Assembly (NCBI RefSeq): GCF_014696615.1
Contig: NZ_JACJQJ010000050.1
Coordinates: forward strand, 1-61,767
From: Nostoc linckia FACHB-104
GTDB lineage: Bacteria > Cyanobacteriota > Cyanobacteriia > Cyanobacteriales > Nostocaceae
Length of the DNA stretch: 61,767 nucleotides
Direction of reading: 5' to 3'
The notes under the pieces are model-generated. The model was not told where the DNA came from, searched no databases, and was given only the letters and a program-made list of their open reading frames with translations. This document shows, piece by piece, positions 2,789 through 22,994 of the stretch. The position numbers and the translations under genes were made by a program. Within the stretch, counting starts at the first letter, position 1, and every line of letters begins with the position of its first letter.

Positions 2789-2816
2789 TATTTCTGATGA
2801 TTTGGAGGATATGCAA
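2789..2816 (-). promoter_or_regulatory. Shared promoter-like motif, copy A (protease promoter)
   Basis: On the minus strand this reads GCATATCCT, nine bases, then CAGAAATA, and ends 36 bases before the protease start codon. The same two half-sites with the same spacing occur upstream of several other genes of this block. Taking TTGCAT and GAAATA as the -35 and -10 boxes gives a 16-bp spacer, so it resembles a promoter with unusually conserved flanks. Confidence 0.65.
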
Positions 2817-2844
2817 TTTTTCAGCAGTCAAGACTGGCGCAAAA

Positions 2845-2872
2845 TTGCATAAGGTCGATTTCCTCAGAAGTA
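2845..2872 (+). promoter_or_regulatory. Shared promoter-like motif, copy B (sigma-like gene promoter)
   Basis: The sequence is GCATAAGGT, nine bases, then CAGAAGTA: a degenerate copy with spacing identical to copy A, which lies back to back with it in the same divergent intergenic region. It is about 130 bases before the start at 3002, farther than the other copies, which leaves a long leader. Copy B would let the sigma-like gene be controlled with the protease. Confidence 0.5.
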
Positions 2873-3001
2873 CTAAAAAATGAAGGCTCAAAATAACTGT
2901 TAAATCAGGTACTCAGTATGGAATCTCAAAAAATGGTTGGACTTGCGTTGAGGAGCATCGGCAATGTGACAATTAACAATGACCAATAAATACAAATACT
3001 T

Positions 3002-4408
3002 ATGAGAGAGGCTTCAAGATATTGGCAATTGATGAGGATTGATGCGGGAGGGAACCGGAGAATTCAACAGATACCTGCGGCGAAGTCGTTTTACGCACAA
3101 GTATTTGAGCAGTTGACACCAGATGCGGACATCCAGCGTCAATTGCTAGATTTATATCGCCATAGTTCTGGCGAGACTGCTTTGCTCGCAGAACGTTGTT
3201 TGCTGTGTTTTCTATCTTGGATTCTCGAACAAGGATGTCTGCAATTAGAAAGGAAATTTGGTCAAAACCATAATTTTACTGCTAGCAATTTGTTCCCTTA
3301 TGTCTTGGATGATGATGGTAAATTATCAGCAGTAAGTTCCTATAAATGCTTCGCGCAAAAAATTCTCCAGAGTTTTGATCCGCAACAAAGTAGTCTGACT
3401 ACTTGGGCGATAATGAAATTAAAGCAACAGCCTGAATTGAATAAGTTTTTATTAGAATGTGGTGTTTATTTAATTAGTAATTGGGCGATTTTAAATGATA
3501 CTCAACCTAAACAGTTAGAACGCATTTTCAAAGAATTTCATATTTTTAAGCAGGGTGGTTTTAGCGACGCAGCAATTAAAGAAGCGCAATCTATTTTAGA
3601 AAGCTATCATACTGTCTACCGTTTGCAAAGGCTGCAACAACGAAGAAAAGGTCTCAGGAGTAAATGTATTGCACCTGATACTCAACAATTACAAGATATT
3701 GCCCAAGATATTCAAAAGCATACAGGTCAAATTTTTGAGATTGAAGTTTTGAGTCAGAAACTACAAAAGCTAGCTGCTCAATTGCGTGAGTACCGAATTT
3801 ATGTTCGAGGTGGTTCTGTACAGATAAGTTCTCTAGACGCTGTGTATGGAAGCAAGTATAATTCTTTGATAGAAGAAATCCCGGCGACTGAAACTAATAA
3901 TATTGTAGAAGAAAACGACGAAGAAACCGAATTTTTGCAGTTTTATCGCCATCAATTTCAACTTTGCTTACAACAAGCTTTAGCTCAAGTTACAGAATCG
4001 CGAGTTAGATATTTAGAACGCAAGAAAGGCGATAAATCACAGATTTTTTTAATTGCTCTGGAGCTATCTCAATGTCAAAAATTGGCAATGAAGGAAATTG
4101 CTGAATTTCTGGGATTGAGAGCGCAAGATTCGGTAACCAAGTTATTAAAGTTAAAAGACTTGCGGACTGATGTCCAACAGGAAATGTTGGTAATTTTAAA
4201 GGAGTCTCTCAAGGAGAAAGCTAAAGTATATGTTGATATCCAAGCTTTGAAAAACCTGGACGAGCGATTGACAAGCTTTCTGTTTGCAGAAATTAGCCAG
4301 ATGCTGGAAAATTCCGAGATTCAATCAAGAACAATGAAAGCTCACCTAAAAGCTGATATTTTCGCCGAACGATTATGTGAATATCTCCAGAATAGAAAAA
4401 CAAATTAA
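3002..4408 (+). CDS. Sigma-70-like regulator of cyanobacterial type
   Basis: This 468-residue soluble protein resembles the divergent sigma-70 family proteins that precede DUF1822 genes in filamentous cyanobacteria. A stretch near 120-165 (SFDPQQSSLTTWAIMKLKQ) resembles sigma region 2, and residues 357-392 (MKEIAEFLGLRAQDSVTKLL) look like the region 4 helix-turn-helix. The middle is helical and charged. It is the first gene of a pair with DUF1822, nine bases downstream. A copy of the shared motif lies upstream, so autoregulation is possible. The family call rests on motif resemblance and context; a non-sigma HTH regulator remains possible. Confidence 0.6.
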   Translation: MREASRYWQLMRIDAGGNRRIQQIPAAKSFYAQVFEQLTPDADIQRQLLDLYRHSSGETALLAERCLLCFLSWILEQGCLQLERKFGQNHNFTASNLFPYVLDDDGKLSAVSSYKCFAQKILQSFDPQQSSLTTWAIMKLKQQPELNKFLLECGVYLISNWAILNDTQPKQLERIFKEFHIFKQGGFSDAAIKEAQSILESYHTVYRLQRLQQRRKGLRSKCIAPDTQQLQDIAQDIQKHTGQIFEIEVLSQKLQKLAAQLREYRIYVRGGSVQISSLDAVYGSKYNSLIEEIPATETNNIVEENDEETEFLQFYRHQFQLCLQQALAQVTESRVRYLERKKGDKSQIFLIALELSQCQKLAMKEIAEFLGLRAQDSVTKLLKLKDLRTDVQQEMLVILKESLKEKAKVYVDIQALKNLDERLTSFLFAEISQMLENSEIQSRTMKAHLKADIFAERLCEYLQNRKTN

Positions 4409-4417
4409 ACCAAAATT

Positions 4418-5812
4418 ATGACAAATTTATTAAGTAATCTTCCTTCCATGTCTTACCTAGATTTTGATGCTTTACCAACTTCAGCCGTTATTCTCTCACC
4501 TGATGAGATTGACCAAGCCGCAATCCTCAGTAATCAAATTATCAATGAATCCAAGCAATGGCAAGCTTACCTTCATTATTTAGCTTTATCAGCTTTTGAG
4601 CAATGGTTAGAGGAAAGAGCAGAATCTTTAACTATTAATCGCGAGCAATGTACAATTTTACAACCAGGTTTAGCAAATTTTATTAGTGGTGTTGCTAATT
4701 TACAAGTAGGAGCATTCAAAGTCTGTTTAATTGCTACTGGTAGCTTGAGCGATGAAATGGTGAATATTCCCAGAGTAGTTGTAGATTTACCAGAGTTTAT
4801 TCCCCACTTTTATGTTTTAGTGGAGGTGTTGGAAGAAGAAGAAGCAGCGAATATTTATGCTTTTTTAAGCTATGCAGAATTACACAATAATTTACAAATA
4901 AATTCTTTACAGTCAGATTGGAATTATCAACTTCCAATATCCTGTTTTGATAGTAATCCAGACCGTCTCTTGCTGTATCTAAGATGTTTGGAATCATCAG
5001 CAATATCTTTACCTGTAATTCCTACAAATCGTAGTGCGATTTTAGCAAACATACAAAATCAGTTGGTGGAATTATTACCTCAGTTACAATCAACGAAACG
5101 GGAATTGTCTGAAGTTTTAACTTGGGAACAAGCTGCTGCTGTTTTAACTAGTCCAGAATTAATCAATTGGGTTTACACATTACAAACACAAGCAGCTACA
5201 GAGAATTTAGAGATGGATAGCGCCAAGCCAGAATCAGCAGATGCTTTTACGTCTCTACAAGATGTAATTAAATTAGTTACCCAACCTGCTTTAAATGCTG
5301 GACGTTGGTTGTGGGACGAGTTGGATGATTTAGCTGCTTCACTTTCTTGGGTGCTGTTACCCAGTTTTGCAGATGCTTCCCAAATGCGCCCAATACGTAG
5401 TCCAGAGGAAGAATTTGAGGTAATAGCTACTCAATTACGACAGAGGGGTTTAGAAATTCCAGTACAAGCGCGGGGTGCGTATCAAGATTTGCTTTTAGCT
5501 GGGATACCTTTACGGTTGTATGCTGTGACTTGGCATTTATTATCGGAATCACAGGAACCAGAGTGGAGTTTGTTACTAATTTTAGGCGCACCTGCTTTAA
5601 GTAGTTTACCGTCTGGGATTAAACTTAGGGTCAGTGACCAAACAGGTATTTTGGATGAACCGGGATTAAATGCAGAGAGTGAAGATTCTTATATATTTAC
5701 CCGTGTGGTTGGTAATTGGGATGAGAAGTTTTTGGTGAGTGTGAGTTTGATGGATGGGGTTGAGGTGACTTTACCGCCTTTTGCTTTTAATTTGGAGCGG
5801 TTACGGAATTGA
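4418..5812 (+). CDS. DUF1822 family protein
   Basis: The 464-residue protein has the N-terminal pattern of DUF1822, a family nearly restricted to cyanobacteria: a start like LPTSAVILSPDEIDQA, then a helical part with WLEERA. No signal peptide or membrane segment is visible. The C-terminal third (LELQ-type region, AVTWHLL, LLILGAPAL) is beta-rich. Its biochemical role is unknown. It follows the sigma-like gene by nine bases, so the two are almost certainly co-transcribed; this gene pair next to CHAT genes recurs in cyanobacteria. A role as a partner or anti-sigma-like controller of the upstream protein is only inferred from the pairing. Confidence 0.75.
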   Translation: MTNLLSNLPSMSYLDFDALPTSAVILSPDEIDQAAILSNQIINESKQWQAYLHYLALSAFEQWLEERAESLTINREQCTILQPGLANFISGVANLQVGAFKVCLIATGSLSDEMVNIPRVVVDLPEFIPHFYVLVEVLEEEEAANIYAFLSYAELHNNLQINSLQSDWNYQLPISCFDSNPDRLLLYLRCLESSAISLPVIPTNRSAILANIQNQLVELLPQLQSTKRELSEVLTWEQAAAVLTSPELINWVYTLQTQAATENLEMDSAKPESADAFTSLQDVIKLVTQPALNAGRWLWDELDDLAASLSWVLLPSFADASQMRPIRSPEEEFEVIATQLRQRGLEIPVQARGAYQDLLLAGIPLRLYAVTWHLLSESQEPEWSLLLILGAPALSSLPSGIKLRVSDQTGILDEPGLNAESEDSYIFTRVVGNWDEKFLVSVSLMDGVEVTLPPFAFNLERLRN

Positions 5813-6017
5813 CTTTGGGATTGGATACCAGAAATTGAGCGATCGCTTTCACAATACTACTCTTCACTGGATAATTGCAATAAGCGGGTAATTATTGCAA
5901 ATGTCTGGTATGCTTTGGTTTTTTCTTCACAATATCTTTAAATAGCTTGTGATATTCAGTATTTATACGGTCTACCACATCAAGGTATCGTAATTATGCT
6001 GAGGTCATTTTTAAATT

Positions 6018-6047
6018 TTGGCATAACCTGGTTTGCCCTCAGAAATA
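6018..6047 (+). promoter_or_regulatory. Shared promoter-like motif, copy C
   Basis: GCATAACCT, ten bases (one more than the other copies), then CAGAAATA, ending 50 bases before the start of the giant TPR-CHAT gene. The surrounding 285-base gap (5813-6097) also contains a HIP1 site at about 5838 and no other feature I can see. Confidence 0.6.
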
Positions 6048-6097
6048 TAAGAGATTGAGCAATCAATCTTATGTAGCCATATTAAGAGGAATAACCA

Positions 6098-9000
6098 ATG
6101 TCTAAGCGTTTGAAGAGTTTCGCCCTAGTTAGTTTAGTGTTTTCACTGACTTGTGGTGTTGGGTTAGCGGCGAATGATGTGATTAATCATACTTTGGCAC
6201 AAACTACAACAAGTTCGGATACTAAAGCAGATGCAGATAAGTTGTTTGAGGAAGGGGTGCAGCAGTTTCGTCGTGGGGAATATCCCAAAGCATTGCAGAC
6301 TTATCAACGGGTGTTGGAAATACGGCGAAAACTGGGGGATAAAGCGGGAATTGGTCAAACGCTGAATAATATAGGACAGGTTTATAATGGGTTGCAGCAA
6401 AACGACAAAGCGTTAGAAATTTTACAACAAGCTTTAACAATTCGTAGAGAAATTAAAGACCGTGCTGGAGAAGGAGAAACTTTAGATATTCTGGGTGCAG
6501 TTTATCTCAGTTTGCAACAAGACGAAAAATCACTCGAAACTTTACAACAAGCCTTAGCAATTCGTCGTGAGGTCAAAGATAAAAATGGGGAAGCTGCAAC
6601 TCTTAGTAAGATCGGATTTACTTATGTTTTCTTGAAAAAGCAAGAACAGGGCTTAAAACTTTTACAGGAAGCACTGGCGCTACACCAAGAGCTAAAAGAC
6701 AAGTTTCAAGAAGGTTTTACCTTATTTAGAATAGGGAACGTTTATTGGAATACAGATGACTATCCTCGTGCTTTGGAATGGTACAAGAAGTCACTGATAA
6801 CAAATCAAGAGGTAGGAAACCGTGCTTTTGAGGGTAGAAGTTTGCAGCAGATAGGATTGATGCATTTTAATCAACAGGAATATAACCAAGCAATTAAGTT
6901 TTATCAACAAGCTTTACCTTTAATTCGAGAATCAGGAATTAGCCAAGCAGAAGCAAATATTTTAGCTTCAATAGGAGATGCTTTTAACAGTCTCAAACAA
7001 TATGACCAAGCAATTAAGTTTTATCAACAAGCAATAACTATAGCGCAAGAATCAAAAAATAAACCACTAGAAGCTAGCCTACTTGTAAAATTAGCAAATA
7101 CTTATTTTACGCTCAATCAATATGAAAAAGCAATTGATAATTATCAACAATCGTTATCGATTGCACGAGAAATACCCAATAATAAATCACAAACATCCGC
7201 CCTTCTATATTTATTAGGGGATACTTATTTTGAGATAAAACAATATCAGCAGTCCTTGAGCTTTTACCAACAAGCACTACCTATTGCCAAAGAAATTACC
7301 AATAAATCACTAGAAGCACAGATTCTCGACAGAATTGGTGATAGTTACTTCAAATTGCAGCAGTATGACCAAGCTATAGCAGCTTACCAACAAGCTTTAA
7401 CAGTTGCTCAAGAAGCAAAAAATCAGGGACTCACAGCAAATATCCTCATTGGTATTGGATCAGGTTATAAATTCCAAGATAATAAAGAAAAATACATAGA
7501 ATACGTTCAGCAAGCATTAAAGATACAAAGAGAAATCAAAGATAAGCCCGCTATCTTAAAAAGTCTATTATTAGTATCTTCACATTATGGTTCAAAAGCT
7601 GTTAATTTCTACACCAGAGGCTTAATCGCTCAAGCGAAAGCAGAATTACCACGTCGCATTGAGTTTGCAGAGGAAGCCTTAAAGCTTGCTCAAGAACTCA
7701 AGCAAGAATCATCAGAAGCTACAGCTTTATACGCATTAGGTCAAAGCTACTTGATTTTAGGAGATAATCAGAAGGCGCTAGAATTCTCACAGCAAGCTGT
7801 CAAAATTTCGCGAAATATTAAAGACATTGAAATCGAAAATAGTGCCCTCAATAACCTTGCTCAAATTTATTCTTCTCAAGGTAACACCATCAAAAAAATC
7901 GAAGTTGGAGAACGACAAGTTGCAATTAAAAGAGAACAAAATGACTCATTAGGTTTAGCTTATGCACTAGTTACTCTTGCTTCTGATTATGCAATTGTAG
8001 GGAAACATCAACAAGCCCTTGAAACCAATGAGGAAGTTTTAGCAATAACACAGAAAATTGACATTAGTAAACTACCTTCATATTTACAAGAAGATGCCCA
8101 GCAAGTACAACTCTTTGCTTTAGATGGATTGAGCAGTAGTTACGAAAGTATAGGGCAACTTGATAAAGCATTAGAGTTTGCTAATGAACACCTAAAAACA
8201 GCCCAAAGCTTCGGCAAACCAAAGTTTGAAGCAGCAGCACTACTTAACTTAGCTTCTTTATATACCAATTCTTTTAGAGATAACCTCAAAAGCATTGATG
8301 CCGCACAAAAAGCATTAAAAATTGCACGACAAATTCAAGAACCAAGAATAGAAGCACAAGCACTACAACAATTAGGTGGAAATTATAATGAGCTTGGCGA
8401 TTTTAGTAATGCCTTACAAACCGCAGAGCAATTATTAAATATTGCCAAGTATTTAGAAAACCCTCGTTTAGAGCGAGATGCTTTAGTAATTTTTATAAAT
8501 GTTTATTACGCTCAGGGTGAATTTCAAAAAGCCCTATCTATGGCACAGGAAGTTGTAGCCATCACACAGCAAAAGAATCTTGGATCTGAAGTAACTGCTT
8601 TAGCTGCATTAAGTTCAAGTTACTTATCAGTGGGAGATACATCTAAAGCTGTAGATGCAGCCCAACAAATTTTAACTATAGCTAAACAACAAAATAATCC
8701 CAATTATGAAATACTTGGTTTAATGTATATGGGACGTGCCCACAAATTGCGGGGAGAATATCAGCAAGGTGTTACTGTTCTAGAAAAAGCTTTGGAAATA
8801 ACACCTAACAATAAGTTTTTTGCAGGAGAAATAGCAGCAGTTGGAGAACTTGCTACTCTCTATGAAGCATTAGGAGAATATCAAAAACTTATTGCATTAG
8901 CAGAACCGCGTTTACCACAAGTAAAGCAACTAAAAAACCGTCCTGTTGAAGCAGGTATACTGATTGTTTTAGGCTACTCTTACAGCAGTATTGGTGAATA

Positions 9001-11446
9001 TCAAAAAGGTACAGGGCTTGTTGAACAAGGTTTAGCAATTGCACGGGAACTTAAAAATCCTGCTCTTGAATCAATGGGACTAGCGAAATTAGGCAGTATT
9101 TATAACTCTCGCAATGAGTATCAAAAAGCCTTAGAATTAACACAACAAAGTTTAAAAATTGCTCAAGAAATTAAAAGTCCACCTTTAATGCTAGAACCTC
9201 AAGCAACTCTAGGAGATATTTATCATAATTTAGGAGACTATACAAGAAGCCAGGATTATTATCAACAAGTATTGACAATAGCTCAACAACTCAAAAATAG
9301 ACGAATTGAAGGTACTTCCTTATTAATTCTCAGTCAAATTAATTTTAAGCAGAATGAATCACAAAAATCTGTAGATTTAGCCCAAAAGGCATTAAAAATA
9401 TTTCAAGAAATTAAAGAACCTCGGTTAGAAGCACTTGCTAATTCAATAGTGAGTATTGGTTACGCTGATTTAGGAAATGAGCAAAAAGCTATAGAGTCAG
9501 CAAAAATATCTTTAGCGTTTGCTAGAAAAGTAAAAAATACAGGTTGGGAAAAAAATGCATTAGCCTTAATTGGACACATACATCGCAAGTTTGGCAGGAC
9601 AGAACAAGCAATAGTTTCCTACCAACAAGCTTTAGCAATTAAAACAGATAATCAAGTTAAAGGTGCAGACGCAGGTATTTATGCTGGTTTAGCAAAAGTT
9701 TATCAGAATTTAAATCAACCTAATGTTGCCATCACCTACTACAAGGAATCTGTTAATAGACTTGAAGCAATTCGTAGCGGTATCGAAGGTTTACCCAAAG
9801 AATTACAAAATTCATTCTTGAATTCAACTGTTGATTTCGACAAAATGAAAGTTTCAGATATATATGCTCAACTCGCCGGTTTGTTAAACTCCCAAGGAAG
9901 AGAAAAAGAAGCTTTTCAAATTCGGTTACTTATCGAAAAACAAGAAATTCGAGAAGCAAGTGGTTCTGGAGGTAGTAACGAAGGTAAATTAAACATCCCG
10001 CTCACTCCTACAGAAGCAAAAATTCCTGAAAAAGCTAAAATCACACTTGCTTTAGCCACTCAGATAAGCGAATGTGAAAAAACTCAATGTAGCCAACTCA
10101 CTGAGCTTATTAATAAAAGAGCCGCTTCCATTCAAGAATTTAGCGCTGAATTGACCAAAATTGAGGAAGAAATTGCAGAGAATCGTGGTAGAGACGCACA
10201 ATTTTTTAACCCAACAGGATTAGCAGAAGCTCAAGCGATTGTTGAAGCACAAGCAAGGGAAACAGGAAAGAATACAGTAATGATTTATCCCTTGGTGTTA
10301 GAGAATGAACTATGGCTACAAGTATATGGACAAAAGGATTTAGTCAAAACCGAGAAAGTCCCAGTATCACGGAAGCAATTAAGAAATGCAGTCGCAAAAT
10401 TTCGTCAGTTAATGGAAAAATGCGAACAAGTTGGTTATAAGTGTGATGCAAAAGATATTGCAGAAATCCAACCCGTCAGCAAGCAACTATACGAATGGCT
10501 GATTGAACCTTTAGAGAAAGAATTACAGGATAATCAGGTAGAAAACTTGATTTTCGCTCTCCATCGAGAAATTCGCTATATTCCCATGAGTACACTTTTT
10601 GATGGCAAGCAATATTTAATTGAAAAATACACAGTTCATAATGTAACCACAGCGAACTTTGAAGAGAAAGAGAAGTTAACCACTAATATTCAAAATAATC
10701 CCATTTTGGGAGTGGGATTATCTAAATCTGCTGCCGATCCAAATCCTAATTCAAATCAAAGTTTTCCAGCTTTAGTCAACGTACCAAAAGAATTAAAAGC
10801 TATTGTGAGTGAAAATTCTAGAGGACAACAAGGTGTTTATCCAGGAAAAATATATTTAGATGAATTGTTCAATTTTGAAACCTTGCTACATAATTTGAAC
10901 AAATATAAGATTCTGCATATTGCTAGTCACGGTTTGTTCGATCCAACAAGCCCAGAACAATCTTATATCTTAATGGGAGATGGGAACCCATTGACACCTG
11001 TAAAAATTTCCAGCTTGACAGAATTAGATAATATTCATTTAGTTGTTTTGTCTGCTTGTCAGACTGCTTTTGCGGCTTCTAAAAATAAAAATCAACCTCA
11101 AGATGGTGTGGAAATTAATACCCTGGCTTTTGCATTTATGCAGCGTGGTGCTGATGCAGTTATGGCTTCTCTGTGGAAAGTCGATGACCCTAGTACTGCT
11201 CAACTAATGCAAGGTTTTTATAAACATTTATCCACTGGAAGAATGACGAAATCTCAAGCATTACGTCAAGCTCAATTAACTTTACTCAAAAGTCAAAAAA
11301 ATCGCTCAACAGATGAAGTAAAACGCGCTCCAGGTGCTTTAGTACCAGTTGCAGACCCAGAAAAATCTCCTCAAAATCTAGAAAATAAAAGCTATGCCCA
11401 TCCCTATTATTGGGCACCATTTATTCTAATTGGTAATGGATTATAA
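6098..11446 (+). CDS. Giant secreted TPR-CHAT protease
   Basis: The 1782-residue protein starts with a signal peptide (about residues 1-35, AANDVINHTLAQ near the end), so it is exported. Residues 45-1330 are a very long array of about 40-residue TPR units (YQQALxIxxEIxxxx pattern) for protein binding. A linker (about 1330-1450) leads to a C-terminal CHAT domain, a caspase-fold cysteine protease domain. The catalytic pair is intact: His1611 in ILHIASHGLFD and Cys1654 in LVVLSACQTAF, and the C-terminus FILIGNG is typical for CHAT. The start has an AGAGGA ribosome site. Copy C of the shared motif lies upstream and the CHAT-CHASE2 gene follows by 62 bases. Its target is unknown; TPR-gated CHAT proteolysis is known from other systems. 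Confidence 0.9.
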   Translation: MSKRLKSFALVSLVFSLTCGVGLAANDVINHTLAQTTTSSDTKADADKLFEEGVQQFRRGEYPKALQTYQRVLEIRRKLGDKAGIGQTLNNIGQVYNGLQQNDKALEILQQALTIRREIKDRAGEGETLDILGAVYLSLQQDEKSLETLQQALAIRREVKDKNGEAATLSKIGFTYVFLKKQEQGLKLLQEALALHQELKDKFQEGFTLFRIGNVYWNTDDYPRALEWYKKSLITNQEVGNRAFEGRSLQQIGLMHFNQQEYNQAIKFYQQALPLIRESGISQAEANILASIGDAFNSLKQYDQAIKFYQQAITIAQESKNKPLEASLLVKLANTYFTLNQYEKAIDNYQQSLSIAREIPNNKSQTSALLYLLGDTYFEIKQYQQSLSFYQQALPIAKEITNKSLEAQILDRIGDSYFKLQQYDQAIAAYQQALTVAQEAKNQGLTANILIGIGSGYKFQDNKEKYIEYVQQALKIQREIKDKPAILKSLLLVSSHYGSKAVNFYTRGLIAQAKAELPRRIEFAEEALKLAQELKQESSEATALYALGQSYLILGDNQKALEFSQQAVKISRNIKDIEIENSALNNLAQIYSSQGNTIKKIEVGERQVAIKREQNDSLGLAYALVTLASDYAIVGKHQQALETNEEVLAITQKIDISKLPSYLQEDAQQVQLFALDGLSSSYESIGQLDKALEFANEHLKTAQSFGKPKFEAAALLNLASLYTNSFRDNLKSIDAAQKALKIARQIQEPRIEAQALQQLGGNYNELGDFSNALQTAEQLLNIAKYLENPRLERDALVIFINVYYAQGEFQKALSMAQEVVAITQQKNLGSEVTALAALSSSYLSVGDTSKAVDAAQQILTIAKQQNNPNYEILGLMYMGRAHKLRGEYQQGVTVLEKALEITPNNKFFAGEIAAVGELATLYEALGEYQKLIALAEPRLPQVKQLKNRPVEAGILIVLGYSYSSIGEYQKGTGLVEQGLAIARELKNPALESMGLAKLGSIYNSRNEYQKALELTQQSLKIAQEIKSPPLMLEPQATLGDIYHNLGDYTRSQDYYQQVLTIAQQLKNRRIEGTSLLILSQINFKQNESQKSVDLAQKALKIFQEIKEPRLEALANSIVSIGYADLGNEQKAIESAKISLAFARKVKNTGWEKNALALIGHIHRKFGRTEQAIVSYQQALAIKTDNQVKGADAGIYAGLAKVYQNLNQPNVAITYYKESVNRLEAIRSGIEGLPKELQNSFLNSTVDFDKMKVSDIYAQLAGLLNSQGREKEAFQIRLLIEKQEIREASGSGGSNEGKLNIPLTPTEAKIPEKAKITLALATQISECEKTQCSQLTELINKRAASIQEFSAELTKIEEEIAENRGRDAQFFNPTGLAEAQAIVEAQARETGKNTVMIYPLVLENELWLQVYGQKDLVKTEKVPVSRKQLRNAVAKFRQLMEKCEQVGYKCDAKDIAEIQPVSKQLYEWLIEPLEKELQDNQVENLIFALHREIRYIPMSTLFDGKQYLIEKYTVHNVTTANFEEKEKLTTNIQNNPILGVGLSKSAADPNPNSNQSFPALVNVPKELKAIVSENSRGQQGVYPGKIYLDELFNFETLLHNLNKYKILHIASHGLFDPTSPEQSYILMGDGNPLTPVKISSLTELDNIHLVVLSACQTAFAASKNKNQPQDGVEINTLAFAFMQRGADAVMASLWKVDDPSTAQLMQGFYKHLSTGRMTKSQALRQAQLTLLKSQKNRSTDEVKRAPGALVPVADPEKSPQNLENKSYAHPYYWAPFILIGNGL

Positions 11447-11508
11447 TTAACAAAAATAAGCATTGGTAATTAATATTACAAACCCAATTTCCAAGTAAAT
11501 TCCCAACA

Positions 11509-13977: not shown

Positions 13978-14665
13978 ATTTATTTGGATTTTACCAGCTT
14001 TAGCATTATCAACTATAGCAATTGATAGCTTACCCGTATTATCAAAACCAGCAGCGAATCCCAATAATCAACCCAGGCGATCGCAACCCAAACAATCACC
14101 TTTTTCCTGGTTGAAAATATTTGCTCCCCTCTCTAATCCACAACCCCCAGTTAAAGCACAAACAGGTGTTTCTCGTGGCAGGATATGTATGTTCTCCCCA
14201 GATTCTCCAGATGGAACAATTCGAGTTGTTTGGAACACCCAACCTCTGTTTTTATGGAAAGTATCGGAAGGTGCAGTAATTACTAAAATGAAACTGCATC
14301 CAGAAAATGATAGAAACAATAATCTATGGAATCAAGCATTTAAAGGTCAAAATAGCGCTATTTATCAAGGTAGTCCGTTACAACCAGGCAAAATATATCA
14401 TTGGGTAATTGATGGTATGTTTGTTCCTTTTCAAATCATGGAAGAAGGACAGAGAAATAAAATTACTCAAGAATTAAAAGCTTTAGAAAATCAATACCAA
14501 GCGCAAGGTGCAACCCCAGAGGAGATTGCATCTGCAAAAGCTAATTACTTTGTTGAGCGTAACTTATGGTCAGATGCTTTGCAACAAGCTTATGTAGTCG
14601 AGAATCCATCACCTGAGCTAGTGAAGATTCGTCAAGAAATACGTCAAAAGCTGTGCAATATTTAA
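13970..14665 (+). CDS. DUF928 family exported protein
   Basis: The 231-residue protein has a signal peptide (about 1-25, IWILPALALSTIAI) and the DUF928 pattern, with a beta-rich core (FLWKVSEGA, LQPGKIYHWVIDG) and a helical tail. DUF928 is common in cyanobacteria and has no proven function; it often follows CHAT-CHASE2 genes, as here. Its ATG lies inside the last codons of the upstream gene (ATGAATAA overlap), which points to translational coupling. It is likely periplasmic, where it could meet the CHASE2 domain encoded next door; that contact is inferred. A terminator-like hairpin follows. Confidence 0.8.
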   Translation: MNKFIWILPALALSTIAIDSLPVLSKPAANPNNQPRRSQPKQSPFSWLKIFAPLSNPQPPVKAQTGVSRGRICMFSPDSPDGTIRVVWNTQPLFLWKVSEGAVITKMKLHPENDRNNNLWNQAFKGQNSAIYQGSPLQPGKIYHWVIDGMFVPFQIMEEGQRNKITQELKALENQYQAQGATPEEIASAKANYFVERNLWSDALQQAYVVENPSPELVKIRQEIRQKLCNI

Positions 14666-14706
14666 GATTTGGCAAGATAATTATCTAATTTTTTCATAGA
14701 TATTTC

Positions 14707-14733
14707 AGGGTGGGTAAGATGCTCACCCTTTTG
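14707..14733 (+). terminator. Rho-independent terminator after DUF928
   Basis: AGGGTG and CACCCT form a short stem with an 11-base loop, followed by TTTTG, 42 bases after the DUF928 stop. It would end the CHAT operon before the separately promoted TPR gene. Confidence 0.55.
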
Positions 14734-14815
14734 TTATTTATACTTAATGATTTTTCTTTACAAAAATAAAAAAACTAGAAAATAAAAAATATTTTTTTGA
14801 AAAAATCGCTCAATT

Positions 14816-14844
14816 TTGGCATAACCTCCTCAGAGCCAGAAATA
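14816..14844 (+). promoter_or_regulatory. Shared promoter-like motif, copy D
   Basis: GCATAACCT, nine bases, CAGAAATA. It lies exactly 100 bases upstream of copy E, both in the 323-base gap before the TPR gene at 14989. The gap is otherwise A/T-rich, with no other feature seen. Confidence 0.55.
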
Positions 14845-14915
14845 CATATAGGTGGCAGGGGTAAAAATCAGATGAGTTCCTTTAATTCAGCGAAACACAA
14901 CAACATCTCAAAATT

Positions 14916-14944
14916 TTGGCATATCCTTCTAACTCTCAGAAATA
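14916..14944 (+). promoter_or_regulatory. Shared promoter-like motif, copy E
   Basis: GCATATCCT, nine bases, CAGAAATA, ending 44 bases before the ATG at 14989, a promoter-like distance similar to copies A, C and F. Copy D repeats it 100 bases upstream. Confidence 0.65.
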
Positions 14945-14988
14945 CACCCCCTTAACACAGCAACAAGTTTGTAAACACCACAGGAGAC

Positions 14989-15561
14989 ATGACAATGAAA
15001 GCATTGAAATTAGCAGCTACAGTTACTTTGGTTGTATTAGGAGCAAGCTTCTACAGCGCAAAAGCTGACGCTAAAGATATCCACAACTCAAATCAATTAA
15101 TTGCACAAGCTTCACCATTGCAAGTAAAACCACAGCTAAGAGATTCCCAAATAAAACCAGCCAACACAAACGGCAATAACTCTACCGTTGAAACTCAATT
15201 ATCACAAGCTTATGAACTCTTAAAGAAAGATGATTACAAAGGTGCGATCGCACTATTTAACAAAGTATTGCAGACTGAACAGAACAATGAAAGTGCTACC
15301 TATGCTTACTTTGGTCGAGGAATCGCATATTTATCTATAGATAAATATGCGGCAGCAAAATCTGACTTTGACCAAGTAATTACCTTAGATGCAAAATTTG
15401 CCCATGCTTATTTCTTCCGTGCTGGTACTCAATATCAACTAGGTAATAAAAACGAGGCGATTTCTGACTTAAATCAAGCAGTTAGCCTTTTTAAAGCCCA
15501 AGGAGAAACAGAACTGGCGAAAAAAGCAGAAGACATGATTGAAAAAATTCAAACCAGCTAG
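14989..15561 (+). CDS. Secreted TPR-repeat protein
   Basis: The 190-residue protein has a signal peptide (about 1-28, LAATVTLVVLGASFYSAKADA) and three TPR-like units in the second half (YELLKKDDYKGAIALFNKVL, then ATYAYFGRGIAYLSIDKYAAAK and AHAYFFRAGTQYQLGNKNEAI). The start is set by CAGGAGAC just before the ATG. It carries no enzyme domain and is likely a periplasmic adaptor, perhaps for the TPR-CHAT proteins beside it (inference). Two copies of the shared motif lie upstream. A paired-hairpin repeat lies directly after the stop. Confidence 0.85.
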   Translation: MTMKALKLAATVTLVVLGASFYSAKADAKDIHNSNQLIAQASPLQVKPQLRDSQIKPANTNGNNSTVETQLSQAYELLKKDDYKGAIALFNKVLQTEQNNESATYAYFGRGIAYLSIDKYAAAKSDFDQVITLDAKFAHAYFFRAGTQYQLGNKNEAISDLNQAVSLFKAQGETELAKKAEDMIEKIQTS

Positions 15562-15564
15562 GAA

Positions 15565-15620
15565 GTAGTGCGAGCATCTTGCTCGCTGCTTAACAATTGG
15601 GAGCGTCTCGCTCCCACTAC
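15565..15620. repeat. Paired-hairpin repeat element between TPR and CHAT genes
   Basis: GTAGTG at 15565-15570 and CACTAC at 15615-15620 form an outer inverted repeat. Inside are two hairpins: GCGAGC/GCTCGC with a 5-base loop, and GGGAGCG/CGCTCCC with a 3-base loop. This is the layout of small intergenic repeats common in Nostoc-type genomes, and it could also act as a terminator. A TTG at 15597 lies inside it, so I reject that as a start for the next gene. Confidence 0.65.
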
Positions 15621-15638
15621 ATAATTATCAAGATAAGC

Positions 15639-16676
15639 ATGATGAAAAAATCAAGAAATAAGTTCCCTTACTTCATTGCTAAACTTGTTCCTACATTTCT
15701 AATTTTGACAACTATTACAGCTAATTATAATAGCGCGATCGCAACAGATACAGAGAATATCGCAAATTATAAATCATCCGTCTTATGGTCAAATAAAATT
15801 AGTTTTAAGAAAACGAAAACTCAGCCAATTGCGGAACCGTTAAGCAAACAACTTGATAAATCTCCAGAAGCAACAAATACCGAACTAATCAGGCAGGTTG
15901 CAAAAAAACAAAATGCTACGATTGTTCAATACTCAGTTATTACCGATGAATCTAAGGTTAATGGAAAAAGAGAAATACAAGAATCTGAATTATATATTTG
16001 GGTAATCAAGCCTACTGGTGATATGCAATTTCGTCGAGTTGACTTAAAAGCTTGGGAAAAGATAGAAAAGAATTCATTTCTTAATTTATTTAGAAGAACT
16101 CGACGTAATCTTGGTGCAAGAAGCGTAAACTTAAAAGGTTCTGGGCTGAAAATTAAACCAGAAGATAAAACCTTGCAATTTGATTTAAAAAAGCTACATC
16201 AAGTATTAATTGAACCAATTGCCGATTTACTACCACAAAAGCCAGAGGAACGGGTGATTTTTATTCCTCAAGGTGAATTATTTACCGTTCCCTTTGCCGC
16301 GTTACAAGATGCGAATGGTAAATATTTGATTGAGAAACATACAATTTCCACGTCACCTTCAATTCAAGTATTAGATTTACTTTACCAGCGAAAAAAAGGA
16401 CGTAAGGACGAAAAACCTTTTGTTCCCAAAAATATCACGGGTGATGAATTATTAATAGTCGGCAACCCCACTGCACCAAAAACACCCCTCACAGCAGGAA
16501 GTGATAACTGTAAAGCATCACGTTTACCGGGTGCGGAAAAGGAAGCCAAAACTATTGCAGAGATGTTCCAAACTCAACCATTGATAGGTGATGCGGCAAC
16601 AGAAACTGCAATTGTGGAGAAAATGCCCCAAGCGAGAATTATTCACCTCGCAACTTATACCTTTGCTGATAATTGA
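15639..16676 (+). pseudogene. Truncated secreted CHAT-domain gene
   Basis: I start it at the ATG-ATG pair at 15639, which begins a normal signal peptide (MMKKSRNKF...LVPTFLILTTITANY). About 345 residues follow, homologous to the CHAT part of the next gene (ESELYIWVIKPTG, VIFIPQGELFTVPFAALQD, KYLIEKHTIST, LIGDAATETAIVEKM). Homology ends at IHLAT, exactly where the catalytic His is expected: the protein reads LATYTFADN and stops, so both His and Cys are missing. It has no TPR units. The stop overlaps the next ORF, which starts inside a TPR. The simplest reading is a deletion that fused two CHAT genes out of frame. The product could still be made and exported but cannot be an active protease. 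Confidence 0.75.
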
Positions 16677-18934
16677 GGGAAGTTAAAGACCGTAATGGTG
16701 AGGGTACTGCACTGGTAAATCTCGGTAATACCTACGATTCCTTGGGAGATTACCCCAAAGCCATTGACTACTACCAGCAAAGCTTGGCTATATTAAGGGA
16801 AATCAAAGACCGTCAAGGTGAGGCTGCTGCACTGGTAAATCTCGGTAATGCCTACGATTCCTTGGGAGATTACCCCAAAGCCATTGACTACCACCAACAA
16901 AGCTTGGCTATATCAAGGGAAATCAAAGACCGTCAAGGTGAGGCTGCTGCACTGGGAAATTTTGGTAATATCTACTTGTATTTGGGAGACTACCCCAAAG
17001 CGATTGACTACCATCAACAAAGCTTGATGATCGCACGGGAAATTAAAAACCGTCTTGGAGAGAGTCAATCACTGGGTAGTCTTGGTGTTGTCTACAATTC
17101 CTTGGGAGACTACCCTAAAGTTATTGACTACTATCAACAAAGCTTGGCTATATTAAGGGAAATTAAAAACCGCCTTGGAGAGGGTCAATTACTGGCTAAT
17201 CTCGGTCTTGCCTACTATTCCGTGGGAGACTACCCTAAAGCGATTGACTACCATCAACAAAGCTTGACGATCACACGGGAAATTAAAAATCGTCTTGGAG
17301 AGGGTAATGCACTGGGAAATTTTGGTAATGTCTACAATTCCTTGGGAGACTATCCCAAAGCGATTGACTACTATCAACAACACTTGGCTCTAGCAAGAGA
17401 AATTAAAGACCGTAAAGGAGAGGGTAATTCACTAAACAATCTAGGATTAACTTACTACAAACAAGCAAAACTTACCTTAGCAGAGAAGACTCTAATCGAA
17501 GGCATAAAAGTTTACGAATCTCTCCGAGGACGAAGATTAAAGGATAATGAGAAAGTCTCTTTTTTCGATACTCAAAGTAATATATATAACGTTCTACAGG
17601 GAGTCCTGATTGCTCAAAATAAAACTGATGCTGCTTTAGAAATCTCCGAACGTGGAAGAGGAAGGGCATTTGTGGAACTACTTGCTTCCCGTTTATCAAC
17701 TAACTCCCAAGAAAAATTTCCAACCCCACCCAATATTACTGAAATTAAAAAAACTGCCAAATTACAAAATGCGACCCTCGTTCAATATTCAATTATTACT
17801 GATGAATTTAAAATCAATGGTAAACAAGAAATCAAAGAATCAGAACTATACATTTGGGTCATCAAACCCACCGGAGAAATCATCTTTCATAAATCCGACC
17901 TCAAACCCTTATGGCAAAAAGAAAACACAACCTTAACTCAATTAGTTAATAAAACTCGTGACTCAATGGGTATAGAAGACATCATCACCCGTCATGGTGG
18001 TCTATTACCTCAAAAACCAGAAAGCAATAATCAAACAAACCAAACCCAAAACTTAAAACAACTCTATAAATTATTAATTCAACCCATCGCCAAATATCTC
18101 CCCAATAACCCAAACGAAAAGGTTATCTTTATTCCTCAAAATTCATTATTCCTTGCACCCTTCCCAGCGCTACAAGATGACAAAGGCAAATATTTAATTG
18201 AAAAACATACTATCCTCACCGCACCATCAACTCAGGTTTTAGATTTAACCCGTCAGCAAAAATTAGGAAGTAAAAAACAAAGAGAAATTGCTGCGGTCAA
18301 ATCTCTCATAGTCGGCAACCCGACAATGCCAAGTGTATCTTTAAAACCAGGAGATGAAAAAACAAAATTACGTCCTTTAAACGGAGCAGAAAACGAAGCG
18401 AAAGTCATCGCTTCTCTACCTTTACTTAATAGCAAACCCCTAATTGGTGATGCAGCGACAGAAACAGCAGTAGTCGCAAAAATGTTCCAAGCAAAATATA
18501 TTCATTTGGCAACACATGGATTATTCGATGATTTACGGGGTTTAGGAAGTGCCATAGCGTTAGCACCTTCTAATCAAGATGATGGTTTACTAACTGCGGA
18601 AGAAATCTTTAACTTTCAACAAAAATTCAACCAAAAACTCAACGCAGATTTAGTAGTTCTCAGTGCTTGCGATACAGGTAGAGGAAGAATTACAGGAGAT
18701 GGGGTAATTGGGTTATCTCGCTCGTTTATTTCTGCTGGTGTACCCAGTGTCATCGTCTCTTTATGGTCTGTAGATGACGGTTCCACAGCCTTTCTCATGA
18801 CCAAATTTTATCAAAATTTAGAACGCAACCCAGACAAAGCTAAGGCTTTACGAGAAGCAATGCTGGAAACCAAAAAACAATATTCCCAACCATTACAATG
18901 GGCTGCATTTACCCTCATTGGGGAATCAGAATGA
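16673..18934 (+). CDS. TPR-CHAT protease lacking its N-terminus
   Basis: The 753-residue frame holds about seven near-identical 40-residue TPR units (residues 1-260), a helical linker, and a full CHAT domain with His615 (HLATHGLFDD) and Cys666 (VLSACDTGRG). The only start is a TTG at 16673 that immediately follows an in-frame TAA. That TTG corresponds to a Leu codon inside a TPR unit (compare LREIKDR further on), and there is no signal peptide, although related proteins have one. The gene has therefore lost its 5' end at the junction with the truncated CHAT gene. It may be silent, or expressed through the 4-base stop/start overlap. The catalytic domain itself looks intact. Confidence 0.75.
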   Translation: MREVKDRNGEGTALVNLGNTYDSLGDYPKAIDYYQQSLAILREIKDRQGEAAALVNLGNAYDSLGDYPKAIDYHQQSLAISREIKDRQGEAAALGNFGNIYLYLGDYPKAIDYHQQSLMIAREIKNRLGESQSLGSLGVVYNSLGDYPKVIDYYQQSLAILREIKNRLGEGQLLANLGLAYYSVGDYPKAIDYHQQSLTITREIKNRLGEGNALGNFGNVYNSLGDYPKAIDYYQQHLALAREIKDRKGEGNSLNNLGLTYYKQAKLTLAEKTLIEGIKVYESLRGRRLKDNEKVSFFDTQSNIYNVLQGVLIAQNKTDAALEISERGRGRAFVELLASRLSTNSQEKFPTPPNITEIKKTAKLQNATLVQYSIITDEFKINGKQEIKESELYIWVIKPTGEIIFHKSDLKPLWQKENTTLTQLVNKTRDSMGIEDIITRHGGLLPQKPESNNQTNQTQNLKQLYKLLIQPIAKYLPNNPNEKVIFIPQNSLFLAPFPALQDDKGKYLIEKHTILTAPSTQVLDLTRQQKLGSKKQREIAAVKSLIVGNPTMPSVSLKPGDEKTKLRPLNGAENEAKVIASLPLLNSKPLIGDAATETAVVAKMFQAKYIHLATHGLFDDLRGLGSAIALAPSNQDDGLLTAEEIFNFQQKFNQKLNADLVVLSACDTGRGRITGDGVIGLSRSFISAGVPSVIVSLWSVDDGSTAFLMTKFYQNLERNPDKAKALREAMLETKKQYSQPLQWAAFTLIGESE
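16681..17460 (+). repeat. Tandem 120-bp repeats encoding TPR units
   Basis: Six full units begin at 16681, 16801, 16921, 17041, 17161 and 17281, with a partial seventh from 17401. Each carries the same TTGGGAGAYTAYCCYAAAG core in register. The DNA identity is far higher than in the TPRs of the gene at 6098, so the array expanded recently and is prone to unit gain or loss. Confidence 0.9.
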
Positions 18935-18946
18935 CCCCTCTCCAAA

Positions 18947-18970
18947 CCTCTCCCCGCTCGCGGAGAGAGG
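18947..18970 (+). terminator. Hairpin after the TPR-CHAT gene
   Basis: CTCTCC and GGAGAG form a stem around CCGCTCGC, 16 bases after the stop, followed by an A/T-rich stretch. It could be a terminator; similar CTCTCC...GGAGAGAGG hairpins are also common cyanobacterial intergenic repeats. No copy of the shared motif is visible in the 152-base gap before the caspase gene. Confidence 0.4.
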
Positions 18971-19086
18971 CTTTAAAACCTATAAGTCGGGGAGTTGATT
19001 GAGCGAAGTCAAAAGCAATTTCCTTATATCCATCGAGCAGACATTAAAACAAACTCAAAATCTTAAACCCAAAATCTCAAATCACC

Positions 19087-21330: not shown

Positions 21331-21562
21331 TGGTACAAAGAATGATCAGATAACATCGCTTGACGTTGAAATATCGCCACCCCGCAGCCGTTGCGCGAAC
21401 GGAACGTGACACCAATCCAGCTACAAGATCTACCTTAGCTAAACTGTCTTTACTTTTGGCATTGCGAATAATAAGGTCAGGTATTTTACCTAACCTCATT
21501 TGTTCCAATTCACATTTAGGAAACAACCGTTCATCTAGAAGGAGTGGCTCGAACTCTCTCAC
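21284..21562 (-). other. Possible gene fragment in the gap between the two caspase genes
   Basis: The 371-base gap 21331-21701 has a minus-strand frame whose start (REFEPLLLDERLFPK, LEQMRLGKIPDLIIRNAK) looks protein-like but matches no family I recognise. It runs into the end of the caspase gene on the other strand, so the 3' part is surely not coding. It may be the 5' remnant of a lost gene. The gap also holds the GGGAACA tandem repeats listed separately. Confidence 0.2.
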
Positions 21563-21627
21563 GTAATAAAAGTCCAGGTTTTAGTGATATAAACCTCATC
21601 CAAGTTGAGAACTGTAGTTTTTCACAA

Positions 21628-21655
21628 GGGAACAGGGAACAGGGAACAGGGAAGA
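21628..21655. repeat. GGGAACA tandem heptamer repeats
   Basis: Three perfect GGGAACA units are followed by GGGAAGA. Short heptamer arrays of this kind are characteristic of intergenic DNA in heterocystous cyanobacteria. Confidence 0.85.
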
Positions 21656-21701
21656 GAATAGAATTTTATTTCCAAATTCTATTCGGAAAAAACTAGGGGT
21701 T

Positions 21702-22910
21702 TCAAAGTAGACGGGGTTTAGATGTTGGAGATTCTAGCAATTTTGCATATCCCACCAATCCTTTACGGCTTTCAAGCTTAACTATTCCTTGCTGCTGACC
21801 TTCAGCATTGATGATGTGAAAAACAGCACTTTTATTCAAGTTCTCCAAATTTTTTGGATTAACACCACCAAGCCAAGTTTCTATTTGATTTTCTTTAACT
21901 TGAGTAATTACCCCTTCTGCGCTCGGTGTTTGTACTCCAATAAAATATATGGGACGCTGCTGATAATTGCTGTTGGGTTTAACAAAAAGTACAGGCTCTT
22001 GAAGATTACCTTGCTCAAAACTTAAAGCATTGACATTGCGAGCAATATTCACAAATGATTCACCCAAAGTTAGATTTCCACTTTGCTGCCAGAGATACTG
22101 TGTCAAAGTATAAGTAAATAGTCCTGCATTAAAGTCATTAAAGCTGGCATCGATGGCAAATTGATCGCGCCTTGCACTTGCAAGCACAACTCCTTTAGGT
22201 ATTCCGTTTCTCCGTTGTTTTATAAATTCCTCTGCTGACAAACCTAAACGTTGTAACCAACTTGCTTGGTAAGCCTTTTCTTCGGGACTAACTTGAAATT
22301 TCTGCTTTAACTGAGATGATTTCAATGCGCTACTGACTAAACCACCAGAATAGATAGTATCGATGACAAAAGTCACATTTTCCGTCTTCAATGCTGCCAT
22401 CAACAACCAAAGTGTGTGTCCTGTAACCTCTTTGGTGCTAGAAGAATTTTCCGATGCTAATTGACTATCGACAGCAACCAAGCTACTAACAAGACCATCT
22501 GGATGATCCCGATCCGCATCAATTACTCGTGAACCATGTCCAGAAAAGTGAAATACTACCACATCCCCTGGTTTGGCTTGCTTAATCAAATGCTCCTCAA
22601 AGGCTTGTAATATGCCTTTACGTGTGGCTTGTTTATCAGTCAGAGTCACAATATCTTGAGGATTAAAACCAAAACGGTGAATTAATAACTCACGTTGCAA
22701 TAAAACGTCATTAACACAACCCGATAACTGAGCCACACCATCAGAGTATTCATTAATTCCCACCAATAATGCTAATTTTCGCGGTGTGTTTTGGGCATAA
22801 GCTTTAGTATCAAAGATTCCCTGTTGACTTACACCCAACTGCCCTAACCCAAATGTTGCTAAGGTCGAGCTTGCGAGTAGCAGAAAATGACGGCGTTTAA
22901 ATGAAGACAT
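21702..22910 (-). CDS. Catalytically dead caspase paralogue (pseudo-orthocaspase)
   Basis: The 402-residue protein is a clear paralogue of the caspase at 19087: same Tat signal pattern (KRRHFLLLASSTLATFGL), same RKLALLVGIN start, and His125 in HFSGHGSR. The Cys loop reads VIDTIYSGG where the active paralogue has DSCHSGG, so Ile186 replaces the Cys and Tyr187 the following His. It ends after residue 402 and lacks the 345-residue tail with DUF4384; I found no frameshifted continuation. The frame is otherwise clean and has its own copy of the shared promoter motif, so it is likely expressed. Pseudo-orthocaspases are known in cyanobacteria; this one could be a decoy or regulator of the active enzyme (inference). 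Confidence 0.85.
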   Translation of the reverse strand: MSSFKRRHFLLLASSTLATFGLGQLGVSQQGIFDTKAYAQNTPRKLALLVGINEYSDGVAQLSGCVNDVLLQRELLIHRFGFNPQDIVTLTDKQATRKGILQAFEEHLIKQAKPGDVVVFHFSGHGSRVIDADRDHPDGLVSSLVAVDSQLASENSSSTKEVTGHTLWLLMAALKTENVTFVIDTIYSGGLVSSALKSSQLKQKFQVSPEEKAYQASWLQRLGLSAEEFIKQRRNGIPKGVVLASARRDQFAIDASFNDFNAGLFTYTLTQYLWQQSGNLTLGESFVNIARNVNALSFEQGNLQEPVLFVKPNSNYQQRPIYFIGVQTPSAEGVITQVKENQIETWLGGVNPKNLENLNKSAVFHIINAEGQQQGIVKLESRKGLVGYAKLLESPTSKPRLL

Positions 22911-22965
22911 GATTATCCCTTAGTCTAAGTATGAGACACTAAACAATTAGCTGTCACAATTACTG

Positions 22966-22994
22966 TATTTCTCAGTGAGTCAAGGATATGCAAA
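22966..22994 (-). promoter_or_regulatory. Shared promoter-like motif, copy F (pseudo-caspase promoter)
   Basis: On the minus strand: GCATATCCT, nine bases, GAGAAATA, ending 55 bases before the start codon at 22910. One mismatch to the consensus. Confidence 0.6.

Follow-up and report, generated by a model that had tools for sequence, protein, structure and literature searches.

In the window analysed here, a stretch of 61,767 nucleotides from Nostoc linckia FACHB-104 (contig NZ_JACJQJ010000050.1), a block of protease, CHAT and caspase genes contains six sites of a two-box motif, GCATAWCCT-N9-CAGAAATA. The two boxes are highly likely to be the -35 and -10 elements of promoters read by a divergent sigma70-like family, whose genes lie directly upstream of a DUF1822 gene and whose member in the window is the protein P0001 (468 aa, positions 3002 to 4408, forward strand). 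Judging from sequence comparisons, the motif is very probably the private on-switch of this unusual sigma factor of the same cluster, and relatives of this switch would control surface and secreted proteins in many cyanobacteria. The earlier note on this DNA had suggested a dedicated promoter class linked to the sigma-like gene, and this suggestion is supported by the abundance of the motif, its spacer, its autoregulatory position and its paralogue specificity. Altogether, the comparisons argue strongly that the promoter class is genuine and conserved and that it goes with a divergent family of sigma factors; its predicted regulon is wider than first described and rich in exported proteins.

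The motif in the window and in its genome

The window was scanned for the motif with up to three mismatches and compared with 100 dinucleotide shuffles. Five matches were found versus 0.49 expected, and none of the 100 shuffles reached five (the largest count was three). Six sites, A to F, had been read by eye in the earlier note; the scan recovered A, B, D, E and F, and the sixth, C, has perfect boxes separated by 10 bases, being the only exception to the 9-base spacer that had been described for the other five.

Site A (2789 to 2814, reverse strand; GCATATCCT-N9-CAGAAATA, no mismatches) lies 36 bp before the start of a subtilase gene (Peptidase_S8; 590 to 2752, reverse strand), whose product has a signal-like N-terminus. 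Divergent from it, site B (2847 to 2872, forward strand) stands 129 bp upstream of the P0001 gene; a site is present there, but it is the variant GCATAAGGT-N9-CAGAAGTA, with three mismatches, and not a good copy. Site C (6021 to 6047, forward strand; GCATAACCT-N10-CAGAAATA) is placed 50 bp before the gene of a large TPR-CHAT protein (6098 to 11446, forward strand), also with a signal-like N-terminus. Sites D (14819 to 14844) and E (14919 to 14944), both on the forward strand and without mismatches, are the distal and proximal members of a tandem pair, 144 and 44 bases from the start of the gene of a small, putatively exported TPR protein (14989 to 15561, forward strand), whose N-terminus is signal-like by eye but was unflagged in the hydropathy scan. 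Site F (22966 to 22991, reverse strand, one mismatch) is located 55 bp upstream of a pseudo-caspase gene (21702 to 22910, reverse strand) and is kept in L248. For A, C, E and F these distances agree with those given before.

Sites D and E are 100 bases apart before the same gene, and in a relative (L257) there are three tandem sites, 81 bases apart, so that D and E look like a local duplication. All the sites could then be copies of one duplicated upstream stretch or of a small mobile repeat with no regulatory role. This explanation is very improbable, since the flanks of A, B, C and F differ from one another, as had been noticed earlier, the distances to the start codons are similar and sites are found before unrelated genes in other genera. 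Moreover, Nostoc calcicola and Iningainema (L066 and L067) have gained or lost DNA between A and B, and both boxes are nevertheless kept.

The scan was extended to the whole genome (9.39 Mb), as the earlier note had proposed, and gave 96 matches with up to three mismatches versus 29 for the reversed pattern. A sister motif, GCATAAGTT-N9-CAGAAATA (the AAGTT version), gave 71 matches versus 31 at the same threshold. On contig C179 it is found 94 bases ahead of the start of a paralogous sigma gene, the first in an operon of sigma, DUF1822, CHAT-CHASE2 and DUF928-like genes. Other good sites in this genome precede genes encoding exoproteins with a two-partner-secretion (TPS) domain, TPR-CHAT proteins, a C39-peptidase/ABC exporter and a histidine kinase; the site before a trypsin-like protein gene is 378 bases away from it, and a short peptide with a double-glycine-like leader is encoded downstream of a site.

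The single theme of proteases, CHAT proteins and caspases that had been attributed to the motif proved too narrow. In this genome the GCATAWCCT version, with at most one mismatch and a spacer of 9, occurs only in the block of the window (4 of the 4 matches in the genome); weaker look-alikes, with two mismatches, stand before other TPR-CHAT genes. The sister motif would serve wider targets, among them the TPS exoproteins, the exporter, the double-glycine-like peptide, the histidine kinase and others. Short peptides with double-glycine-like leaders are encoded directly downstream of the motif in L051 (15851 to 16147) and L179 (near 2020). Since the C39-peptidase ABC exporter is a candidate for control by the motif as well, it is possible that bacteriocins form part of the regulon.

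Distribution, position and paralogue specificity of the motif

The 217 genomes of the family were searched, and those with a relative of P0001 at E ≤ 1e-20 were taken as sigma-positive (n = 102) and the others as sigma-negative (n = 115); the numbers of sites per genome are complete for both versions of the motif. With at most one mismatch, the AAGTT version was present in 56 of the 217 genomes, with 171 sites in sigma-positive and 11 in sigma-negative ones. The reversed pattern gave 3 and 9, respectively, so the 11 sites of the sigma-negative genomes can be considered background. The contrast between genera was clear (p 6e-5), and it was weaker when labels were permuted within genera (observed 171, mean 160.6, p 0.007). 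To analyse the spacer, both boxes were required to match exactly and the distance was allowed to vary from 4 to 14; among the matches listed (the first 150), in sigma-positive genomes 95 of 134 had a spacer of 9 and 25 a spacer of 10, and in sigma-negative genomes only 1 of 16 had a spacer of 9, with no peak. Thus, a preference for 9 bases is confined to genomes that encode the sigma.

Regarding the position of the motif, the regions upstream of 38 distinct sigma genes, many of them close relatives, were scanned over 350 bases, allowing two mismatches and spacers of 8 to 11. The motif was found upstream of 29 of the 38 genes and in none of 190 shuffled upstream regions, and in 25 of these 29 the site is 78 to 129 bases upstream. 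One gene (L250) was counted as a miss, with five mismatches, as its site B is more than 300 bases from the called start and outside the scanned region.

The placement of sites in general was examined in three genomes of another genus. Thirty of 38 sites were intergenic and at most 250 bp before a start on the same strand, an arrangement shared by 8% of random positions, so the random scatter relative to gene starts that the earlier note had named as refuting did not occur. Three of the eight exceptions are inside another predicted open reading frame (ORF), with the starts of sigma, kinase and exporter genes 32 to 84 bases downstream, and were kept as exceptions. Half of the genes downstream of the 30 sites (15/30) belonged to the TPS, CHAT, sigma, trypsin or C39 exporter classes, which were drawn from the genome of N. 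linckia itself, versus 3 of 267 in the background. A signal-like N-terminus, assigned by a simple hydropathy rule, was present in 18 of 30 versus 50 of 267. Taken together, the targets range from subtilase, caspase and TPR-CHAT genes to two-partner-secretion, trypsin-like and bacteriocin-export genes, and their theme is thus wider than first thought.

The conservation in related loci that the earlier note had called for was explored by aligning four of them, from Calothrix brevissima, Tolypothrix, N. calcicola and Iningainema; a fifth (L068) was left out for its 30% identity over a short stretch. Sites B and C are kept in the four loci and site A in three, being missing in L064; in L065 it is kept, and the ORF behind it is short and without Pfam match. 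A further sample comprised 20 stretches from nine genomes with the window-type sigma; in several of these genomes the locus is present in multiple copies, and not all loci are therefore independent. Site A was paired with a subtilase in 11 further loci besides the window. Upstream of the sigma gene, box 1 of site B was GCATAAGGT in 13 of 13 loci, and site C kept its spacer of 10 before the TPR-CHAT gene in the 12 loci where it was found (the window included in both counts). Tandem sites pair with the small exported TPR protein, and additional sites stand before caspases and CHAT proteins. The same genes are thus preceded by sites in related loci, and the lack of conservation that the earlier note had named as refuting did not appear.

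The two versions of box 1 were compared with the type of sigma factor. The window-type sigma was assigned to ten genomes by the best scores, leaving out the C179-type matches; bit scores do not separate the types (715-737 for the C179-type, 670-680 for some window-type proteins), and the sequences of region 4 agree with the choice. For one genome (G015) with two sigma matches, one was among the matches listed. GCATAWCCT sites averaged 6.0 per genome in these ten genomes, 0.98 in the 92 other sigma-positive genomes and 0.37 in the 115 sigma-negative ones (within-genus permutation, p 5e-5). Three congeners without a window-type sigma among the matches listed have no GCATAWCCT site, but 4, 8 and 9 AAGTT sites. 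Hence, the GCATAWCCT version follows the window-type sigma, with exceptions. Box 2 is identical in both classes, which differ chiefly in two bases of box 1; likewise, the region-4 helix differs between the window-type and the C179-type sigma. This split would fit two sigma factors with a different region 4 and an alike region 2.

The motif could instead be an operator, bound by an ordinary transcription factor (a response regulator, for example) under which the sigma operon and its targets are jointly regulated, and the sigma would then read a different element. The boxes are separated by about two turns of the helix, which would also suit such a factor, and the targets in several genera include a histidine kinase. 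We regard this as unlikely, as no inverted or direct repeat is seen in the motif by eye, and the change of box 1 with the sigma paralogue while CAGAAATA stays unchanged is what would be expected of sigma regions 4 and 2. The kinase, the one regulator compared with the motif in this way, was also judged unlikely by its distribution, since it was detected (E ≤ 1e-70) in only 26 of the 217 genomes and genomes without it hold sites (six in G178, five in G081 and four in G024). The gene found directly downstream of an AAGTT-type motif in several genera (L045, 15914 to 16843; L174, L182 and L161) encodes a HisKA_3-type histidine kinase.

There is also little chance that the motif, here ascribed to the P0001 family, belongs to a known cyanobacterial sigma class such as that of SigJ. 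Known sigma types are expected in sigma-negative genomes too, and these hold only background numbers of AAGTT sites. The J-Box of SigJ in Nostoc punctiforme resembles the present case in being an alternative-sigma promoter of filamentous cyanobacteria found by its motif across cyanobacteria, and the excerpts of that study (PMC6495340) describe it as an extended -10 element, GGGaAtacT, accompanied by a weak -35. In GCATAWCCT-N9-CAGAAATA both boxes are strong and different from it, and the identity with the J-Box was rejected on sequence and architecture.

P0001 as a putative sigma factor and the proposed switch

Profile comparisons indicate that P0001 is most likely a remote sigma70-family protein. 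The family profile (A5) was built with P0001 and 21 of its 24 non-redundant relatives. Two DUF1822-linked proteins match Sigma70_r4 (1e-7 and 6e-10), one of them also region 2 (r2) just under the cut-off, and hhalign aligned the P0001 family with these two proteins over 291 columns, including the helix-turn-helix (probability 97.1, E 5.5e-11), versus 0.1 for the DUF1822 control. The fixed-spacing, two-box promoter before its own gene, seen in the 29 of 38 genes described above, is also a trait of sigma factors. Extracytoplasmic function (ECF) sigma factors have fewer than 50 aa between regions 2 and 4 (PMC11119718), and in P0001 the r2-like and r4-like parts are roughly 200 aa apart in the hhalign alignment. 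With its about 470 residues and long middle part, P0001 is thus not a canonical ECF sigma.

Several observations weigh against P0001 as the sigma factor of these promoters. No sigma family of Pfam or NCBIfam is matched by P0001 itself; among 22 relatives, TIGR02937 is hit weakly by only four (best E 0.083) and Sigma70_r4 by only one (0.075). Compared with seven longer sigma proteins encoded by this genome, the P0001 profile gave no match (probability 0.9, on the scale of the 97.1 above), the search of PDB sequences with the sigma profile found no sigma, and the AlphaFold model of P0001 is too poor to use (mean pLDDT 42.7). The distance from GCATAA to GAAATA in the motif is 14 bp, below the usual sigma70 or ECF spacing. 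Nine of the 38 sigma genes are without a site, the paralogue on contig C167 included. AAGTT sites with at most one mismatch are absent from 57 of the 102 sigma-positive genomes, which means that for many members of the family the recognised sequences must be different or the targets few. The flanks of B and C are well conserved too among close relatives (mean column identity of 80% and 75%), so conservation by itself does not single out the boxes. For the GCATAWCCT version, the sigma-negative genomes hold 42 matches versus 3 in the reversed control, many of which are a few identical recurring sequences, left in the count, that are probably coding DNA; and G028 and G037, to which no window-type sigma was assigned, hold the exact sequence of site C. 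Finally, the inhibitory role of DUF1822 considered below is one that we infer.

The DUF1822 gene follows the sigma gene directly in 37 of 38 loci, and the exception is at a contig end. In the window (4418 to 5812, forward strand) its product is proposed as an inhibitor or partner of the sigma factor. The gene of a CHAT-CHASE2 membrane protein (11509 to 13977, forward strand), a candidate sensor-protease, comes after the TPR-CHAT gene. Seven loci extend for over 6 kb downstream; five of these contain CHAT-CHASE2 or its N-terminal part, and in three of the five DUF928 lies no more than 9 kb away. DUF928 is also present in the C179 operon and in the window, where the DUF928-like protein (13970 to 14665, forward strand) has a signal-like N-terminus and a Pfam score under the cut-off. 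The hydropathy scan gave a membrane segment in CHAT-CHASE2 and none in the sigma factor or DUF1822. Searches of PDB sequences with CHAT-CHASE2 and with the DUF1822 profile gave no useful match.

All five proteins in the comparison retain the histidine and cysteine of the CHAT domain (GH, NSC), and sigma operons encode three of the five. The set consisted of four CHAT-CHASE2-like proteins encoded beside DUF1822 genes (in the window and on contigs C179, C163 and C48) and a CHAT protein whose gene is close to the C167 pair but on the opposite strand. This pair (L046, 9083 to 10510; G000, C167) contains a third sigma-DUF1822 paralogue, with no recognisable upstream motif.

In the proposed mechanism, the window sigma would serve the GCATAWCCT-N9/10-CAGAAATA promoters of its own block and the C179 paralogue the GCATAAGTT-N9-CAGAAATA promoters spread over the genome, each of them also driving its own gene; their targets would include exported proteases, CHAT and caspase-like proteins, and surface exoproteins. 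The membrane CHAT-CHASE2 protein may sense an extracellular cue through CHASE2, its caspase-like CHAT domain could then act on DUF1822 by cleaving it, and DUF1822 would release the sigma factor, so that the regulon would be made and exported. The computational case for the link between sigma and promoters is strong; the gating by a protease is inferred. Tentatively, and as a possibility that we consider doubtful, these loci could form a family of protease-gated switches, in which a CHASE2 cue leads CHAT to cleave DUF1822 and frees a non-canonical sigma for its private promoters, with a burst of exported caspases, subtilases, TPS exoproteins and bacteriocins, the paralogues being insulated by two -35 bases in self-contained, partly plasmid-borne islands. 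The sigma locus is plasmid-borne in Calothrix brevissima NIES-22 (L064) and present three times in one congener (L250, L253 and L266), and it seems to move or duplicate as a unit.

Relation to known systems and other features of the region

Caspase-like proteins are numerous in filamentous cyanobacteria and, to our knowledge, how they are switched on is largely unknown. A readable promoter code would predict which proteases, CHAT proteins, exoproteins and bacteriocins are fired together, by which sigma, and how paralogous switches are kept separate, turning a predicted sigma/DUF1822/caspase neighbourhood into a concrete regulatory circuit with named sites.

In the accessible sections of Kaur et al. 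2021 (PMC8195603), neighbourhoods of this kind are predicted, in which an ECF sigma gene is grouped with genes for a TPR protein of the DUF1822 type and for a caspase-domain protein with a variable C-terminal part, CHASE2 being one of the options. The operon of the window resembles their EACC2-caspase/ECF/DUF1822 plan, with a caspase-fold protein with CHASE2 beside sigma and DUF1822. Those sections do not give a promoter, regulon, autoregulation or paralogue specificity, which are the new elements here as far as the literature covered can tell. The motif was not found in the literature covered by a full-text search of a partly open library, subscription papers excluded.

The best precedent for the proposed gating would be CASP of type III-E CRISPR, where, as stated in the excerpts of PMC10028731, the CHAT protease Csx29 (a TPR-CHAT protein) cleaves Csx30, the inhibitor of the ECF-like CASP-sigma, and motif matches lie in promoters of the same locus. 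Both systems encode a CHAT protease with catalytic histidine and cysteine together with a sigma factor. The trigger in CASP, in the same excerpts, is a target RNA bound by Cas7-11, whereas here CHAT is fused to a membrane CHASE2 domain. The DUF1822 profile gave no Csx30 chain among PDB sequences, a comparison at the sequence level only, and no Cas family was among the Pfam matches of the block, with no dedicated search for a type III-E effector made.

DegS-RseA-RpoE and other protease-released ECF sigmas are similar in having an autoregulated sigma, envelope or exported proteins as targets and a co-encoded partner. Sigma factors of that type have about 200 aa and RpoE-type promoters differ from the present motif. 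Unlike them, the DUF1822 protein has no membrane segment in the hydropathy scan and the sigma has about 470 aa.

Concerning the rest of the block, two CHAT ORFs (15597 to 16676 and 16673 to 18934, forward strand) come after the small TPR gene and are probably on the same transcript. A caspase of family C14 (19087 to 21330, forward strand) has its catalytic histidine and cysteine, a twin-arginine-like N-terminus by eye and no site of its own. The pseudo-caspase under site F was correctly described as such in the earlier note, since its catalytic cysteine is lost (DTIYSGG instead of DSCHSGG); its N-terminus is also twin-arginine-like by eye. The length of the TPR-CHAT ORF under site C varies widely among relatives, some truncated by stretch ends, which suggests a changing number of repeats. 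Upstream of site C, two stretches at 5924 to 5940 and 5982 to 6005, TCTTCACAATATCTTTA and AAGGTATCGTAA(N)2ATGCTGAGGT, hardly vary across five related loci, which exceeds the apparent needs of a promoter. Next to the block, positions 24031 to 55820 contain GmrSD-like, DrmD-like helicase, PLD-like and other helicase genes, which look like a defence island.

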